In this document: piece after piece, positions 18,839-41,188 of the stretch
Layout of the letters: each line of letters starts with the position of its first letter
Numbering within the stretch: the first letter of the stretch is position 1
Origin: Spirochaetia bacterium
Lineage (GTDB): Bacteria > Spirochaetota > UBA4802 > UBA5550
Assembly: GCA_009885955.1 (NCBI GenBank)
Contig: VFJS01000016.1
Location: 62,001-126,000 of the forward strand
Direction: 5' to 3'
DNA: 64,000 bases
The notes under the pieces: generated by a model
Databases searched by the model: none
What the model was told of the DNA's origin: nothing
The model's input: only the letters and a program-made list of their open reading frames with translations
Translations under genes and position numbers: made by a program

Positions 18839-18915
18839 ATTGACCTCGAAATAAATTTTATCTGAAACATTTAATTTTTTAATATTCCAAATGCAGATCT
18901 CATAATTAAAGAAGA

Positions 18916-18988
18916 TTAACCACGAAAGGCACGAACTACACGAAAAGAAATTTTTTTCTTTCGTCTCTTTCGAGTTTTTCGTGGTTAA
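18916..18988. repeat. Imperfect hairpin repeat (type C)
   Basis: TTAACCACGAAAGGCACGAA at the left faces ...TTTTTCGTGGTTAA at the right, with a T-rich centre. The left half recurs alone at 31569-31600 upstream of hisD. It could also serve as a terminator between the DUF3786 and PmbA genes. Confidence 0.6.
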
Positions 18989-26841: not shown

Positions 26842-26876
26842 CATGAATATAATGCATTCTTTTAATCTTTGGTACA
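26842..26876 (+). repeat. 35-bp direct repeat R1, copy 1
   Basis: Identical to 28820-28854, beginning CATGAATATAATGCATTC. The two copies bracket the beta-barrel protein gene (27275-28510), 1,978 bp apart. Confidence 0.75.
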
Positions 26877-26980
26877 AAAGTATTTATGCAGTACATTATG
26901 TCAATGATAATTTGGCAATCCCCTGAGTCAATATACTGAAGATGTAGAGATTTAAATCTATGGATGGTTTTCTTAAAGCA

Positions 26981-27027
26981 TTCTGCTATTATTATGTGGC
27001 AATTTTTACCACATAATAATAGCAGAA
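26981..27027. repeat. Perfect 19-bp inverted repeat, 9-base loop
   Basis: TTCTGCTATTATTATGTGG (26981-26999) and its exact complement (27009-27027) enclose caattttta. It is flanked by A-rather than T-rich sequence on the right, so a plus-strand terminator role is doubtful. It is 250 bp upstream of the beta-barrel gene. Confidence 0.85.
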
Positions 27028-27200
27028 AAAACCACAATCCTGTGGGTTAAAGAGCTATTGCATTTATCTGATATATCGATTACTTTTACTGCAATAATTT
27101 TATAAATTTTTTGATATATGAAATATTATTTTAAGAGAAATATGAAATTATATCAAAATAAACAATTTTTATTGACAAAAAAAGTAACATGGATTCTATA

Positions 27201-27260
27201 TAAAAAGTTACATAAAGTTACAAAAAGTTACAAAAAGTTACAAAAAGTTACAAAAAATCA
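27201..27260 (+). repeat. 10-bp tandem repeat just upstream of a ribosome-binding site
   Basis: Six units of CAAAAAGTTA: three perfect (27221-27250) and three with one to three changes on the outside. The array ends one base before AAGGAG (27262-27267 area) of the beta-barrel gene, so copy-number change would alter promoter-to-gene or mRNA leader spacing. Confidence 0.9.
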
Positions 27261-27274
27261 TAAGGAGATTTTAC

Positions 27275-28510
27275 ATGAATCTGAAAACATCAAGAACTAC
27301 TGCATTACTATTCGTTTGTGCGGTAATGGCCGCAGGGATTCAAACATCCTTTGCATCCGGGACAAGAATGAAGTCCCTGGGTATGACCTCAGATACCTAC
27401 TGGATGCTGCAGAAGGATACGGCATATGCGAATTTTAATCCTTCGTACTATGTACAGTTCCCCGGCAGAGCCACTTTCAATGAAACTTCTGCAGGGGTAT
27501 CCACCGCCGGTGTATGGGTGAAGCCGGTGGATGAACTGATCATAGTTCTTAATGCCAATGGAGCATCACTGTCGATAGGCGACGCCGGTACAACGGCATA
27601 CGGCCAGTTTCAGCAGTTACCTCCTGCATTGAACTCGACAAACATGGCGGTAAGGGAGAATTACAACGTAAACGCTGCATACAAAATGGGACCTATGAGC
27701 GTAGGCTTCAGGTACGGGACTGCTGACAGGATGGACAAAAATGTGTCAGCCAATACAACGAATCAAAAAGCTGTTGATACATACCAGGCAGGCTTCTTCA
27801 TGGATCTGGGCGGCGGAATGGATTTCGACGTAGCATACAAAATGACCAGCTATACCATCGATCAGAAAGGTACTGCAGTTGCCGGAAGCGAATATAAGGC
27901 AGCCACGTCCGATAACGACATCACTGCCCGTTTCGACATGGCTACAAGCCAGACTAACAGCATACATGTATGGTTAAGGTATAACTTATTAGACAGGACC
28001 GATAAACTCGGGACGAACAAATTAAAATATAACATAGACAGGCTCATCCTTGGTTTGTCTGATGAAATAAAATTCGCAGGAAATGCCTTTGCCTATTTCG
28101 GTTTTCAATATGAGATGATCTCTGAAGAGAAAAAAATTACCGGTTCAAAAACTACTATCGATACAAACAACCTGGGATTCACCATGGGCGCACAGGCCAA
28201 CCTTACAACAAACCTGTCAATGGCCCTTGGAGCAAACAGGATTTGGGATAAGAGCATAACAACCAAAGCAACCGGTCAGGCTAAAAAAGAGGAATTGAAG
28301 GATTCCGGCGCTGCCAATGGAAACGCCAATGGTACTTTCGGTCTTCAGTACAAAATGGGTCACTGGTCACTGGAAGCCCTGGTACAGAGAGGCTTCCTGA
28401 CAAACGGGCCCTTCCTGATAACCGGCAACTCAACAGCCAGCTGGGCAGCGGAAGCTAATATCACCTATGTCTTTGGAACAGAAGCAAAATTTGATGACGG
28501 GAAGAAATAA
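27275..28510 (+). CDS. Outer-membrane beta-barrel (porin-like) protein
   Basis: 411 residues. A clear signal peptide (TTALLFVCAVMAAGIQTSFA) precedes alternating-hydrophobicity strands such as YNVNAAYKMGPMSVGFRYG, YQAGFFMDLGGGMDFDVAYKM and AYFGFQYEMISEEKK, and the protein ends in AEANITYVFGTEAKF with charged residues after. Gly/Asn/Thr-rich loops fit surface exposure. I cannot name a family. Strong ribosome-binding site AAGGAG; possible length-variable control by the upstream tandem repeat. A rho-independent terminator follows. Confidence 0.7.
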   Translation: MNLKTSRTTALLFVCAVMAAGIQTSFASGTRMKSLGMTSDTYWMLQKDTAYANFNPSYYVQFPGRATFNETSAGVSTAGVWVKPVDELIIVLNANGASLSIGDAGTTAYGQFQQLPPALNSTNMAVRENYNVNAAYKMGPMSVGFRYGTADRMDKNVSANTTNQKAVDTYQAGFFMDLGGGMDFDVAYKMTSYTIDQKGTAVAGSEYKAATSDNDITARFDMATSQTNSIHVWLRYNLLDRTDKLGTNKLKYNIDRLILGLSDEIKFAGNAFAYFGFQYEMISEEKKITGSKTTIDTNNLGFTMGAQANLTTNLSMALGANRIWDKSITTKATGQAKKEELKDSGAANGNANGTFGLQYKMGHWSLEALVQRGFLTNGPFLITGNSTASWAAEANITYVFGTEAKFDDGKK

Positions 28511-28597: not shown

Positions 28598-28712
28598 GTG
28601 TCCGGGAAATTGAGTAAATAAATGAGAAAAACTATCCCCGGTTGATGTGCCCCCGTTTTGTATATCTATCGATGAGGTACAATTTCATGCTATTTTTTAT
28701 AATTTTAAAAGT

Positions 28713-28820
28713 ATATAATATCAGCAAAAGAATTGACGGCATAACCGGGAATAATTATGATACAGTGGAAACTGAAGTATACGCACTACGGGGACTGGAA
28801 GATGATTAAAATAACAAAGC
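28713..28820 (+). repeat. Truncated duplicate of the hisD 5' end
   Basis: 95 of 100 bases at 28721-28820 match 31635-31734, covering the hisD leader and its first codons (MIQWKLKYTHYGDWKMIKI versus MIQRKLKYTHYGDWKMIKI). Similarity ends abruptly at 28820, where the R1 repeat begins. The remaining frame runs only a few more codons to a stop. Confidence 0.9.
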
Positions 28821-28854
28821 ATGAATATAATGCATTCTTTTAATCTTTGGTACA
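28820..28854 (+). repeat. 35-bp direct repeat R1, copy 2
   Basis: Identical to 26842-26876; it starts exactly where the hisD duplicate ends, marking a recombination junction. Confidence 0.75.
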
Positions 28855-29174
28855 TTGGATTTATGGGGCGCATTATGTCAATGATAAATTTATATCGGGG
28901 GAATTGTAAATCTTTAGTGAGAAAAACAGCCCCGGGAAATCGTTAAAAAACAGAAAGAATTTGTTTCACCCTCTATGTATGGGTCAAATAGTATCTTTCA
29001 AAAATTATTGGTGTGACAGATGAAAAGATTTATGGGGCCTGTATTATTATTTGTTGCTGGATATTTCTGGATTGGTACATCCTTCTGTATTATGAATAGA
29101 ACAGTGTCGGAATCTGATGATTTCCGGTTTTAACATGTATCGAAAGCCAGAGAGGTAATCGGGCCATCTGATTT
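28855..29174. other. Junction sequence downstream of the histidine kinase gene
   Basis: No firm gene. A 37-codon frame (29020-29133) encodes a short hydrophobic peptide but lacks a ribosome-binding site. A phrase near 28922-28955 (gaaaaacagccccgggaaat...) is similar to one near 31370-31405 on the other side of the kinase gene. Confidence 0.4.
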
Positions 29175-31322
29175 TTATGTTTCGTGAGCCCCGGAATCAA
29201 GAACCGCACGGATGCGTATCGCAAGGTCCCTCGTTGAATAGGGTTTCTGTATGAGCGCCACGCCCTCATCAAGTATCCCGTGGTGGGCGATGATGTTGGC
29301 CGTGTATCCCGAGGTGTAAAGCACTTTCGTTTCTGGATGCAACTGCTTTAACTGTCCGGCGAGCTGCCGTCCGTTGAGGCCCGGGAGGACCACATCGGTG
29401 AGAAGTAGTTGGATAGGCTCCTTATGCTCACGCGCCAGATCGATCGCCGCCTCGGCGCTGGCGGCGGCGAGAACCGAGTAACCGAGAGTGGGCAAGAATT
29501 GTGCGGTGAAGTTGCGGACCTGGATCTCGTCTTCCACCAGCAATATGGTTTCCGTCCCGGTCTGTAGCGCCGGCAACCCGGAAGGCTCATCAGCCGGGCA
29601 GTCCTGCGCATCGGCGCGCGGGAAATAGATTTTAAAGGTTGTTCCGTGGCCCAATTCGGAATAAATCTCTATGGTACCGCCGCACTGGCTGATAGCACCA
29701 TAGGACGTCGCCAGACCAAGCCCGGTTCCCTGCCCGACAGGCTTGGTGGAATAGAACGGTTCAAAAAGATGCTGTTTGGTCTCTGCAGACATGCCCTCGC
29801 CGTCATCGCTGACCGTGACCATTACATAGCGACCGGGCCGTGTGAGGGGGTGGGAAGCTGAGTATTCGCGATCGAGGATGGTGTTCTGGGTTTCGATCAT
29901 GAGGCGACCGCCTCGCGGCATCGCGTCGCGGGCATTGATAGCGAGGTTGACAATGACTTGCTCGATGACCGAGGGATCGACCATGACGAGTCCAATCTTT
30001 TCCTCGAACCTGGTGTTCAAGGCAACATCCTCACCCAGCAGCCTTCCGATCATCTTATGAATATGGCCGATGAGCTCGTTGAGGTTACACAACCTGGGTT
30101 CGATAATTTCCTTGCGCGAGAATGCCAGGAGCTGACGGGTGAGACCTGCCGCACTTATGGCCGCCTTGCGGATCTCGTCCAGCGCTCCGGACATCGAGGC
30201 GGCATTCCCGGGACTCAGCGCAGCCATGTCCACGTTGCCCAGAATAACCGTTAACAGGTTGTTGAAGTCGTGCGCCACACCGCCGGCCATCCTTCCTAAA
30301 GACTCCATTTTCATCGCCTGCTGCAGCTGTTGTTCGAATGCTTTTTTCTCTTTGGCCACGCGCCGGCGTTCCGATATATCACGCGACACACCCAGGTAAG
30401 CCCCCTGGCCATGATAATTCGTTGCTGAAACAGTCAGTTCAACAGGCAGCATTATTCCATCCTGGCGGCTGTGGGATGTTTCGAGTTGTAGTATACCCCT
30501 GGAATGCACCAAGTCCGCGGTTCCTTTCCAGCTTCCGGGAGGACCGCTGATATCGTCAAAGGACATTGTTAACAGCTGCTCACGACTATAGCCCAGTTGC
30601 GTGCAGGCTGCCGAATTGACTTCAAGAAGACGACCTTTGCCGGAAACAATAAAAATACCGTCTACTACATTTTCAAAAAGGTGTCGATAATTGAGTTCGC
30701 TCGTTTGCAGGGCCTCCAGGCGGATATGCTCCAGAAGACCGAGAAAATACTTGAACACGATAACCAGGATGGAGGTCACGAAGACAACGACAAGAGCAGT
30801 TACGCCGGTGACAAAAACCCGCGGCGACATCGGAGTGATCACGAGCTGCAGTATTGCCAGACTGACCACGGCCAGGATTACCACACCCAGCCAACGGTAG
30901 CTGAACACCATGGCGGTAAGCAGCACCGGGATGATGGCCGTTCCCAGCAGCACCATCTCCGAATTGGTTTTTACAACAAAGGGCGCGGTAAGCGCCACCC
31001 CGGCGGTGACTGCGATATAGAGCCAGATTCCCGGCAGGAAATAGCCGGAGCGGAGGAATAGCAGGGCAACGGCAATCAATCCAACACCGGCCAGTATCAC
31101 AGTGAAATCGTTGCCGGTCATCATTGTCGTGCCCAGCCATACTCGAAACACGAAGTCGGTCACCCCGATGCCGATCAACACCATTATGATATGAACAAGC
31201 ATGATCGAAGCGAAAAGTCGCGCCGCATGTCGATCCTCGCTATCCGCGATTCGAGGATTCGGCCCGAGCAAGTAGCCGAGCCATCGCCCGGCAGGTTTTG
31301 GTTTGGAGTCTTTGGTCGTCAT
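29175..31322 (-). CDS. Membrane PAS hybrid sensor histidine kinase
   Basis: 715 residues from ATG 31322, preferred over an upstream in-frame ATG (31406) because GGAG lies at correct distance and the extra residues come from AT-rich flank. Order: five or six membrane segments (about 35-195), PAS (about 210-320, SELNYRHLFENVVDGIF), HisKA with VAHDFNN (phospho-acceptor His near 351), HATPase (DDGEGM, GQGTGLGLATSYG) and a C-terminal receiver (LLLTDVVLPGLNGRQLAGQ). GC content and codon use are visibly higher than around it, and it lies between two hisD 5' copies, so recent acquisition is likely. No partner regulator is adjacent. Confidence 0.9.
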   Translation of the reverse strand: MTTKDSKPKPAGRWLGYLLGPNPRIADSEDRHAARLFASIMLVHIIMVLIGIGVTDFVFRVWLGTTMMTGNDFTVILAGVGLIAVALLFLRSGYFLPGIWLYIAVTAGVALTAPFVVKTNSEMVLLGTAIIPVLLTAMVFSYRWLGVVILAVVSLAILQLVITPMSPRVFVTGVTALVVVFVTSILVIVFKYFLGLLEHIRLEALQTSELNYRHLFENVVDGIFIVSGKGRLLEVNSAACTQLGYSREQLLTMSFDDISGPPGSWKGTADLVHSRGILQLETSHSRQDGIMLPVELTVSATNYHGQGAYLGVSRDISERRRVAKEKKAFEQQLQQAMKMESLGRMAGGVAHDFNNLLTVILGNVDMAALSPGNAASMSGALDEIRKAAISAAGLTRQLLAFSRKEIIEPRLCNLNELIGHIHKMIGRLLGEDVALNTRFEEKIGLVMVDPSVIEQVIVNLAINARDAMPRGGRLMIETQNTILDREYSASHPLTRPGRYVMVTVSDDGEGMSAETKQHLFEPFYSTKPVGQGTGLGLATSYGAISQCGGTIEIYSELGHGTTFKIYFPRADAQDCPADEPSGLPALQTGTETILLVEDEIQVRNFTAQFLPTLGYSVLAAASAEAAIDLAREHKEPIQLLLTDVVLPGLNGRQLAGQLKQLHPETKVLYTSGYTANIIAHHGILDEGVALIQKPYSTRDLAIRIRAVLDSGAHET

Positions 31323-31568
31323 TGCGTTACTCCGATCCATTAATTTCAAGGAATCTGCAGAAATATATGAAAAGAACAGGCCCCGGTAATCTTTTAAAAA
31401 AAACATACTATTTTTGTATGCTTTTATATTACAATATATTTTATTAATGTCAACATTTTTTGCTAATGTATAAACCCGAATATTTCAGTTATGGAGGTAT
31501 TGAATATTTTTAATGCCAAAAAATCATCGGGAATCCTGGCTTTTTTACGAATCCATTTAAAAAAAAGA

Positions 31569-31600
31569 TTAACCACGAAAGGCACGAACAGCACGAAAAG
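31569..31600 (+). repeat. Half copy of hairpin repeat type C
   Basis: TTAACCACGAAAGGCACGAA and following bases match the left half of 18916-18988; the complementary right half is missing. Confidence 0.55.
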
Positions 31601-31626
31601 TAATTTTTTTGTATAATCTTCCTAAA

Positions 31627-31734
31627 ATATAATTTCAGCAAAAGAATTGACGGCATAACGGGGAATTATTATGATACAGCGGAAACTGAAGTATACGCAC
31701 TACGGGGACTGGAAGATGATTAAAATTAAAAAGC
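31627..31734 (+). repeat. Intact partner of the hisD 5' duplication
   Basis: Original copy of the segment at 28713-28820, spanning the hisD leader and first codons. The two are 2,914 bp apart and enclose the histidine kinase gene. Confidence 0.9.
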
Positions 31735-33026
31735 TTGAGGACATAACCGGAAAGGAACTCCATGGCCTCTTTAACCGTTTCGGTGAGGACTTCAGTTCCA
31801 TAATAACCGGGACGGTAATGCCTATTGTCAAAGGCGTAAGGGAAGGCGGCGACAGGGCGGTTCTGGATTATACGGAAAAATTTGACGGTGTACGGCTGAA
31901 CTGCACAACGGCATCGGAAGAGGAAATTGAAAGGGGCTGGCGTGATACCCCCGGCGATGTTTTAAAGGCATTCCTCAGCGCCGGTGAAAATATCCATGAA
32001 TTCCATTCAAGGCAGAAGCGGGATAATATCTCCTATACCAGGAGTGACGGCATAACCCTGGGCATTATGTATCAGCCTATAGAAAACGCCGCTATTTATG
32101 TTCCCGGAGGAAAGGCCTCCTATCCTTCATCAGCGCTCATGGGGATCATTCCGGCACAGATTGCAGGCTGTAAAAATATCACAATCATTACCCCTCCTGA
32201 CAGGGATGGAAATATTTCCAATGTACTCCTTGCCATCTGCAGGGAGTTGAACATACACAGGATAATAAAAGCAGGCGGCGCCCAGGGGATTGCGGCAGCT
32301 GCACTGGGGACAGAGACCATCGCGAGGTCGGAGATCATTGTGGGCCCGGGGAATGTGTATGTCACCGCTGCCAAGACCTATCTCTTCAGCCTCGGCATCA
32401 TCCAGATCGATTCCATGGCCGGGCCCAGCGAGGTCCTCATCATTGCCGATGAAAAGTCTGACCCGAAATGGATTGCCTATGATCTTCTTTCCCAGGCCGA
32501 GCATGAAGAGAATGCCACCGCCATTTTACTCACCCCATCGGAGTCCCTTGCCGGCAGGGTGGCTGAAGAGATTGAAAAGGATCTGGATTCCGGAAGTGGA
32601 CGGCATGAAATAAAAAGAAAGTCCATCGAAGGGAGGGGGATGATAATACTCACCGGTACCATGGACAAGGCGATATCATTTTCAAATTCCTACGCCCCGG
32701 AGCATATGGAACTCATGGTGGATAACCCCCTTGATTACCTGGATAAAATTAAAAATGCCGGTTCCCTGTTCCTGGGGAGATATGCACCGGTTTCAATAGG
32801 CGATTATTATTCAGGGACAAATCATATCCTTCCCACCGGAGGGGCGGCGCGGTTTTCTTCAGGGACCTCGGTGGAAACCTTCCTCCGCAGAATGACCTTC
32901 CAGCTCCCGTCGAAGGACTTTCTCCGGAAATCGAAAGGGCCCGTGGGAACAATGTCCGGGATAGAAGGTTTTGATGATAAGCACGGAGGATCCATTGACG
33001 TGAGGTTTGAGGATGAGAACAGATGA
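31671..33026 (+). CDS. hisD: Histidinol dehydrogenase
   Basis: Full-length HisD: PIVKGVREGGDRAVLDYTEKFDG, AAIYVPGGKASYPSS, GGAQGIAAAALGTETI, IVGPGNVYVTAAK, the zinc/catalytic region AEHEENATAIL and C-terminal GDYYSGTNHILPTGG. It performs the last two steps of histidine synthesis (histidinol to histidine). The start is ambiguous: ATG 31671 (451 aa, after GGGGAA) or ATG 31716 (436 aa, closer to usual length and alignment). No other his gene is in the window. Confidence 0.92.
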   Translation: MIQRKLKYTHYGDWKMIKIKKLEDITGKELHGLFNRFGEDFSSIITGTVMPIVKGVREGGDRAVLDYTEKFDGVRLNCTTASEEEIERGWRDTPGDVLKAFLSAGENIHEFHSRQKRDNISYTRSDGITLGIMYQPIENAAIYVPGGKASYPSSALMGIIPAQIAGCKNITIITPPDRDGNISNVLLAICRELNIHRIIKAGGAQGIAAAALGTETIARSEIIVGPGNVYVTAAKTYLFSLGIIQIDSMAGPSEVLIIADEKSDPKWIAYDLLSQAEHEENATAILLTPSESLAGRVAEEIEKDLDSGSGRHEIKRKSIEGRGMIILTGTMDKAISFSNSYAPEHMELMVDNPLDYLDKIKNAGSLFLGRYAPVSIGDYYSGTNHILPTGGAARFSSGTSVETFLRRMTFQLPSKDFLRKSKGPVGTMSGIEGFDDKHGGSIDVRFEDENR

Positions 33027-38918: not shown

Positions 38919-39233
38919 TCACTCCACTGCTTTTCGTACAGCAGCAGCGCATATAATATCAAATTCTTTTTTCTTCAGAGGCATTTGCAATTGATTCAAA
39001 TATGTTTTTTATTGTGATGTTATCATCATTTTTTTTTAGGCTGTACTAAATTTAACTTCAATTTTTAATTTGTTTTTATCATCATATAAATCGTGAGCCA
39101 AATCTTTACCCCAATCAACATTAATCAGGATTTTTATTAGAATTTCTGCTACTTTACCTAACCTTCTAGTTCTTAGACTAAATATTCCATTTCTTAGTTC
39201 TTCTGCAGTAAAATTTAATTCTTCAAATGCCAT
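38919..39233 (-). pseudogene. Decayed type II restriction endonuclease partner
   Basis: ATG 39233 overlaps the methyltransferase stop (TAATG). The first 65 codons are intact and contain LGKVAEILIKI and the PD-(D/E)XK-like end DDKNKLKIEVKFSTA, then TAA. Coding-like sequence resumes in a second frame (LKKNDDNITIKNIFESIANA) and a third (KKEFDIICAAAVRKAVE) before a final stop at 38919-38921. At least two frameshifts in A-rich runs and probable truncation indicate an inactive nuclease gene. Confidence 0.6.
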
Positions 39234-41188
39234 TACTTTACCATCTTGTTTATATATTTTCTTTCTTCATCGGTAATTGAAAAAAAATCAAATAGAAATT
39301 TGTCTATCATCTCTTCTGATTTTTTGTTCTGTAAAACATCATTTACCATATTTAATATTAAATTCTCTTGGTTTTTAGTAAATATTGGTAATGGTAATGC
39401 TTCTAATTGGCTTCTTAAAATTTTTATTGATGCGAATAACTTTTGGTATAAAAACTGATACAATTCAGAGTTAAATAAGGCTAATATTATTTTTATTGGA
39501 TAATTTTTTATCTCAGGAATTATTATATTCGCACTATTTAGGGTTAATACTTGCTTGTTATCATAGGCAAATATTAAATTCTTTGATATAAATTTATAAA
39601 TTAATTTCTCACTGGATCTATATTTTTGTATAGGAGCAACTTGTTGGAAATTATTAGGCTCATAATTGATATATTTACTAGCTATACATAAGTTGTATTT
39701 TTTAACATCTTTACCAGTGTAAATTGGTTCCAAATCCGGTTCAGGTTCACTTTTAATATATTTCCCATTGTTACCGGTTACGATACCAAGAGCCCAATCT
39801 GCATTATTCTTCAATGTTACATGTTCGAAGTTATAAACTCTTTTAATTATTTCTTGATCTATTTTTGAAGCATGTATATTAAAAATGTAATCTTGATTAT
39901 TTTTATATTTAATCTGACAGATTTGATATGATACAGTTTCGGTGGTTATTTTGATTTCATTATTATCATCAAGTTGCACAGGATTGTTTAAATCAATTCT
40001 TATTACTGGTGTAAAAACATTTGTAAACACACGATTTAGAAATTTTATCTTCTTAATATGAGTATTTGTTAGAATAATTTTTCTAATATCTTTGTGGACT
40101 TTAACGTTTAGTATTGATTCAGGTAATATGAATGACAAATTTCCATTTTCATTTAAAAGATTGATACATTTGTTTAATATGTATGAATATGATTCTTGAG
40201 ATATTATTTCAGGATAGATTTCTTTTAGATTTTCTAAATCACTTTTTGAAAAATGCAAACCCCATGGTGGATTTGTAATAATTAAATCAAAGTTTCCAAG
40301 TTTATCATTACCAAATAAGTTATCAGAATTAAAATCCAACAAAACATTATTATTATATATTTTCGGTACAAAATCTGTAGTTTTATACGCCACAATTAAA
40401 TTTATTCGAGCAATTCGCACTGCGATACTATCAATATCAATTCCATAAATATTTTTTGGATCTTTGATAATTCTAGCGGCAGTAAGTAAAAATTGTCCTG
40501 TTCCACAACATGGATCCAATATTTTATGACGTTCATTTAAATAATCATTAATTACTTCTTCTGCAATAAAATTAGGGGTATAATATGAACCTTTTACTGC
40601 TTTTTCACCCTCTAACATTATTGATTGATATATAATTCCTAGAATATCAATTTCATTTGGAAGTTCAAAATCAAGCAAATCTTTATATTTTTCTAATTTC
40701 AAATTATTTTTAATTGAATTAAACCAATTGTATAATTCTTTTTCTAATTGCTTAATTAGAATAGAATATGCTTTAAAATCAAAAATATTTACTTTTTTTT
40801 CTGTTTTTTGAAGAATAAGTACATCTTCAATTATCCCAAAGGATATACTTAATAAATATAATGAGGTAGATATATCTAATTTGTTATCAATAATATAATT
40901 AACTATTGTTTCTATTAAAATTGAATTATCTTTATTTAATAAATATTCTTCAGGAATAAAGCTTCTACTAGCTTTCTTTTTATTAGCCCTGCTTGTCAAT
41001 CTATTGATATTTCCATTACTAATGTCTGATTTTAGTTTTCGTACATCTTCATGCTTATAAAATACTTTATTATCAATTTTAATAGGATTTAAATAACCAT
41101 GAGTTATCCAATTTCTTACTGAAGCATTAGAAATCCCTAATTTAATTGCGACTTGATCAATATTTAACAATTTATCGACTATTGCCAT
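39233..41188 (-). CDS. N6-adenine DNA methyltransferase with N-terminal helix-turn-helix
   Basis: 651 residues. A MerR/excisionase-like helix-turn-helix (LNIDQVAIKLGISNASVRNWITHGYL) at about 8-35 is followed by a helical region, the SAM-binding motif LDPCCGTGQF (224-233), and catalytic NPPWG (306-310), diagnostic of adenine methylases, with a C-terminal target-recognition part. The whole coding region is very AT-rich compared with neighbours, suggesting transfer. It is coupled to the decayed nuclease gene, so it now probably acts as an orphan methylase; the fused DNA-binding motif might self-regulate. Confidence 0.85.
   Translation of the reverse strand: MAIVDKLLNIDQVAIKLGISNASVRNWITHGYLNPIKIDNKVFYKHEDVRKLKSDISNGNINRLTSRANKKKASRSFIPEEYLLNKDNSILIETIVNYIIDNKLDISTSLYLLSISFGIIEDVLILQKTEKKVNIFDFKAYSILIKQLEKELYNWFNSIKNNLKLEKYKDLLDFELPNEIDILGIIYQSIMLEGEKAVKGSYYTPNFIAEEVINDYLNERHKILDPCCGTGQFLLTAARIIKDPKNIYGIDIDSIAVRIARINLIVAYKTTDFVPKIYNNNVLLDFNSDNLFGNDKLGNFDLIITNPPWGLHFSKSDLENLKEIYPEIISQESYSYILNKCINLLNENGNLSFILPESILNVKVHKDIRKIILTNTHIKKIKFLNRVFTNVFTPVIRIDLNNPVQLDDNNEIKITTETVSYQICQIKYKNNQDYIFNIHASKIDQEIIKRVYNFEHVTLKNNADWALGIVTGNNGKYIKSEPEPDLEPIYTGKDVKKYNLCIASKYINYEPNNFQQVAPIQKYRSSEKLIYKFISKNLIFAYDNKQVLTLNSANIIIPEIKNYPIKIILALFNSELYQFLYQKLFASIKILRSQLEALPLPIFTKNQENLILNMVNDVLQNKKSEEMIDKFLFDFFSITDEERKYINKMVK

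Follow-up and report, generated by a model that had tools for sequence, protein, structure and literature searches.

Two copies of the hisD start in an uncultured spirochaete: probable scar of an old tandem duplication, with a histidine kinase gene among dispersed repeats

In an uncultured spirochaete, the two copies of the hisD start on either side of a hybrid histidine kinase gene were probably left by a tandem duplication long ago, and one of its halves today carries the kinase between the genome's own scattered repeats. The genome is a 4.77-Mb draft in 117 contigs, and the positions given here are those of the window, the whole 64,000-nucleotide stretch that was analysed (C25:62001-126000, C25 being a contig of 168 kb). 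The features that frame the argument are as follows:

26842-26913, plus strand: R2a, the upstream end of the proposed duplicated unit in what would be its original place (88% match to 28820-28890)
27275-28510, plus strand: porin-like gene of copy 1 (beta-barrel-like, no Pfam match; domain search and genome search)
28693-28824, plus strand: truncated hisD copy with promoter, leader and first 8 codons (repeat D1; promoter-like pair 28733-28761)
28820-28824, no strand assigned: novel junction, where the hisD 5' and R2 homologies meet (three sites side by side; D1/R2 overlap)
28820-28890, plus strand: R2b, second copy of 26842-26913 (repeat comparison, shuffle-tested alignment)
31607-31738, plus strand: presumed original hisD promoter, leader and first 8 codons (repeat D1; promoter-like pair 31647-31675)
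31716-33026, plus strand: hisD, histidinol dehydrogenase, intact (PF00815, E = 4.9e-144; start from relatives)

The two hisD starts form a direct repeat, D1, that is 132 nt long and 89% identical (local alignment scored 197, whereas shuffled sequence never exceeded 27), and a genome-wide BLAST search with both flanks found these two copies and no third. The initial annotation had seen the core of this repeat as a 100-bp match (28721-28820 against 31635-31734), and its claim that the 5' end of hisD is directly repeated holds over the greater length. D1 comprises about 109 bp of hisD promoter and leader, ribosome-binding site included, plus the first 8 codons, and a TTGACG-17-TATGAT promoter-like pair is kept in both copies. 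Comparison with relatives places the hisD start codon at 31716 (MIKIKKLEDI...); the longer frame of the left copy stops after 28 codons.

What had gone unseen is that the left hisD start passes directly into a second direct repeat, R2b, whose only other copy in a genome-wide search, R2a, sits between a DEAD-box helicase gene and the porin-like gene. The two homologies overlap at the junction by five bases (hisD AAAGCTTGAG, junction AAAGCATGAA, R2a TTGCCATGAA), and the order along the window is R2a, left hisD 5' end fused to R2b, and right hisD, all in direct orientation. This fusion is the main evidence for a tandem duplication, since joining the hisD 5' end to position 26842 is what duplication of the stretch from 26842 to hisD codon 8 must create, and insertion at hisD would not give it. 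The divergence of the two repeats is alike (89% identity for D1 and 88% for R2), as expected from one event. The ends of the unit thus stand in the start-end, start-end order of a direct duplication, with a downstream-to-upstream junction between them. The interiors of copy 1 and copy 2 gave no significant match to each other, and since they share no detectable sequence, one or both must have been replaced, which implies a further event that the sequence does not show directly. Upstream in copy 1, at 26981-27027, lies an inverted repeat of 22 bp that is near-perfect and has a loop of 3 bases (TTCTGCTATTATTATGTGGCAA), and downstream of it five 10-bp direct repeats (27199-27268) stand just before the porin-like gene, whose two paralogues (83% and 70%) lie at other places in the genome.

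The likely course of events can be outlined as follows. Illegitimate recombination at a few matching bases would have joined hisD codon 8 to position 26842, about 4.9 kb upstream, and the product would have been a tandem duplication of R2, the interior, and the hisD promoter and start, in which the complete hisD stayed in the downstream copy and the upstream copy ended in a truncated hisD start. The two interiors may then have diverged by loss and by insertion among the genome's own repeats, to leave the porin-like gene in copy 1 and, in copy 2, the hybrid histidine kinase between a full repeat A and a relic A'-B-C (below). The event is of an ordinary, common kind: spontaneous tandem duplications with short-homology junctions and one decayed copy likewise have direct copies, a downstream end fused to an upstream end and only a few matching bases at the junction. 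The locus differs from them in that its interiors no longer match and only the two unit ends betray the duplication. Papers on such duplications include PMC12607827 and PMC3161906. The locus shows that what looks like a gene that has entered a duplicated target can be a tandem-duplication scar, recognizable where the truncated start of a gene is joined to sequence derived from the opposite end of the duplicated unit.

The initial annotation had instead proposed that the kinase came in on a mobile element, whose integration at the 5' end of hisD duplicated or rebuilt the hisD start; we now consider this very unlikely. The kinase is indeed GC-rich for this genome (0.55, the 94th percentile among 195 genes), is placed between repeats and lies directly upstream of hisD, and the part of the proposal that describes a duplicated hisD start with a repeat-bounded kinase beside it stands; integration that duplicates or rebuilds hisD is not supported, given the R2b fusion and the intact gene. 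The kinase segment is not bounded by two hisD copies, as had been supposed, since the 71 bp of R2b, a piece of duplicated chromosome, lie between the left copy and the segment, and att-like repeats at both segment boundaries are for the same reason absent. On the right, hisD is whole and has a promoter of its own, so that no target gene was restored. Codon bias of the kinase, earlier described as foreign-looking, is ordinary (55th percentile among the same 195 genes), and the hisD-start copies differ by 11%. A PF00589 search found no tyrosine recombinase on the 168-kb contig, in agreement with the earlier remark that no integrase is seen, and the R2b repeat together with the recombinase-free contig led us to reject integrase-type target restoration. 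Site-specific elements that restore their target resemble this locus in that one end of a gene is partly repeated close to an additional segment; here, however, there is no integrase, the partial copy lies off the segment boundary and is a 5' end with a promoter, and a second, unrelated repeat is attached to it. An assembly artefact is extremely improbable: the genome is a draft, and many of its contigs break within A elements, but the copies have diverged by 11-12% and stand deep within a contig of 168 kb, and diverged copies are not something an assembler creates.

The segment between R2b and the right hisD start (28891-31606) consists, in order, of A, about 115 bp without a match, the kinase gene, A', B and C:

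28898-29059, plus strand: element A, full copy (nhmmer 105.9 bits, model positions 3-167; 88.2 bits with model R1)
29175-31323, minus strand: hybrid histidine kinase of about 715 aa (PAS, HisKA, HATPase_c and receiver domain matches)
31348-31405, plus strand: A', truncated element A (nhmmer 35.5 bits, model positions 3-58)
31398-31503, plus strand: B, a non-coding end found after IS91-like transposase genes (genome repeat search)
31556-31606, plus strand: C, short dispersed repeat (ACCACGAAAGGCACGAA...; more than 25 copies in the genome)

The kinase frame is unbroken, with a start codon assumed near 31323 (the open frame could begin at 31406) and an N-terminal membrane region judged by eye; its best relatives within the order are 39-53% identical. 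Elsewhere in the window, a 651-aa open frame on the minus strand (39233-41188) has 24% GC, against an average of about 46% for the sampled genes, and extreme codon bias. On the minus strand of B a TTGACA-16-TAATAT pair (31453-31426) points to the kinase and may drive it, and the relic A'-B-C would probably supply the kinase promoter too. On contig C52 (L171, 1-1188) B and A come after a gene that matches the IS91 transposase, and B, C and a short reading frame recur together elsewhere in the genome, so that B-C is most readily taken as what remains of an IS91-like end. The likeness to the end of an IS91-family rolling-circle insertion sequence lies in B itself and in the arrangement on C52; the difference is that the window segment holds only the non-coding relic. 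No Y2 transposase was found in the kinase segment, the PF04986 matches being confined to C68 and C52. On the minus strand of C68 (L178) an IS91-like transposase (563-1123) adjoins a XerA-type tyrosine recombinase (1596-2405). Repeat C is also present at 18908-18957 of the window, and its copies occur in both orientations, often near B.

In a further reading, which we regard as unlikely, nothing was inserted: the duplicated unit would have held both porin and kinase, copy 1 then losing the kinase and copy 2 the porin. The model has the attraction of symmetry, kinase relatives occur throughout the order, the codon bias is ordinary, and a weak A-like stretch beside the left hisD start (28603-28641) could match A' on the right. 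That stretch is not significant in direct comparison, however, and direct comparison of the interiors found neither a porin remnant in copy 2 nor a kinase remnant in copy 1. The tandem duplication itself is symmetric in this respect, as either interior, that of the porin or that of the kinase, may have been in the ancestral unit, or the two together, or neither, and the kinase may have been inserted into copy 2 or been part of the unit duplicated. Among 15 relatives, hisD surroundings of up to 20 kb contained none of the window's hisD-adjacent genes; the nearest genomes compared belong to different genera of this family, in which the genes around hisD keep no common order. The hisD/R2 chimera had no match in plasmids.

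A different history for copy 2, compatible with the duplication, is that recombination among A elements brought the kinase into it as a unit flanked by A, which is possible, though we do not favor it. The sole two A matches on the 168-kb contig flank the kinase in the same orientation, and A is on that ground likely to be linked to the kinase's presence, whatever the mechanism. Elsewhere in the genome, A pairs 0.7-2.8 kb apart bracket varied genes. Among the copies of A, linkage is present within the left part and within the right part but nearly missing between the two, a pattern that suggests that copies have exchanged sequence, with no sharply defined point of crossover; saturation may also explain it. 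Against this, A' is truncated, no known recombinase is tied to A, and, taking all copies together, the neighboring genes point the same way in only about 60%. By inspection the agreement is clearly higher in the dense array contigs, so that A may still be a strict cassette site by gene direction.

The arrays of A, which run in one direction, are odd, and the repeats around the kinase deserve a separate look. A is a dispersed repeat of about 165 bp with 112 matches in the genome, 97 of them of at least 30 bits, to a sequence-only model built from 29 copies; 78 relatives held no strong match, only weak and partial ones, and A had no match in IMG/VR contigs or plasmids. The flanks and element A gave only chance-level matches to Rfam families. 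Orientation is shared within contigs in 83 of 84 copies, and in all nine cases where neighboring A clusters are more than 10 kb apart. The copies are clustered (40 gaps shorter than 3 kb, 5.7 expected), and the genes between them are varied: nitroreductase, lipocalin, PIN, Band 7, ankyrin and unknown proteins. Copies were found on C93, C11, C6, C66, C99, C39, C94 and C10 (L165, L166, L167, L069, L181, L182, L075 and L074). We also considered A as a promoter unit, an idea that was dropped with an opposite-strand promoter-like pair in only 11 of 44 copies.

Clusters of sites in one orientation with varied genes between them are characteristic of integron gene-cassette arrays and CALINs, and A shares this with them, as well as a putative group II intron whose insertion point in the repeat is fixed (below); attC sites are known to carry group IIC introns (PMC7923331). 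A differs in lacking their tested hallmarks. No integron integrase scored above the 265-bit cut-off of profile TIGR02249 anywhere in the genome, the nearest reaching about 210 bits with a gap at profile positions 175-230. The attC R box (GTTRRRY or RYYYAAC) stood at a fixed column in 0 and 1 of 44 A copies, respectively, and A has no consensus pairs of an attC hairpin (fold z mostly 0.8 to -2.2). A as an attC site is rejected by these structure and motif tests and, with no integrase over the cut-off either, we do not call it an integron. It is quite unlikely that this spirochaete has a gene-capture system, so far undescribed, whose sites are the A elements of about 165 bp, devoid of attC structure and exchanged between copies, and that the kinase is a single cassette of it away from the arrays; if so, A-bracketed genes would be spreading through the chromosome in one orientation. 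The wider value of the locus is as a lead to some 100 oriented, clustered 165-bp repeats that bracket diverse genes as integron sites do.

Many A copies are themselves interrupted. An insertion recurs at A position 67|68 and was seen from one end in six copies and from the other in three; its GTGCG 5' end and domain V-like 3' end suggest, in our reading, a group II intron. The 3' side is found at L072:155-219, L102:98-163, L166:98-160, L168:5638-5704, L172:8734-8797 and L174:80-147, and the 5' side at L068:3912-4009, L070:6352-6445 and L168:1888-1984. Many contigs end inside this insertion, and two other elements are inserted in A at 70-72 and at 85.
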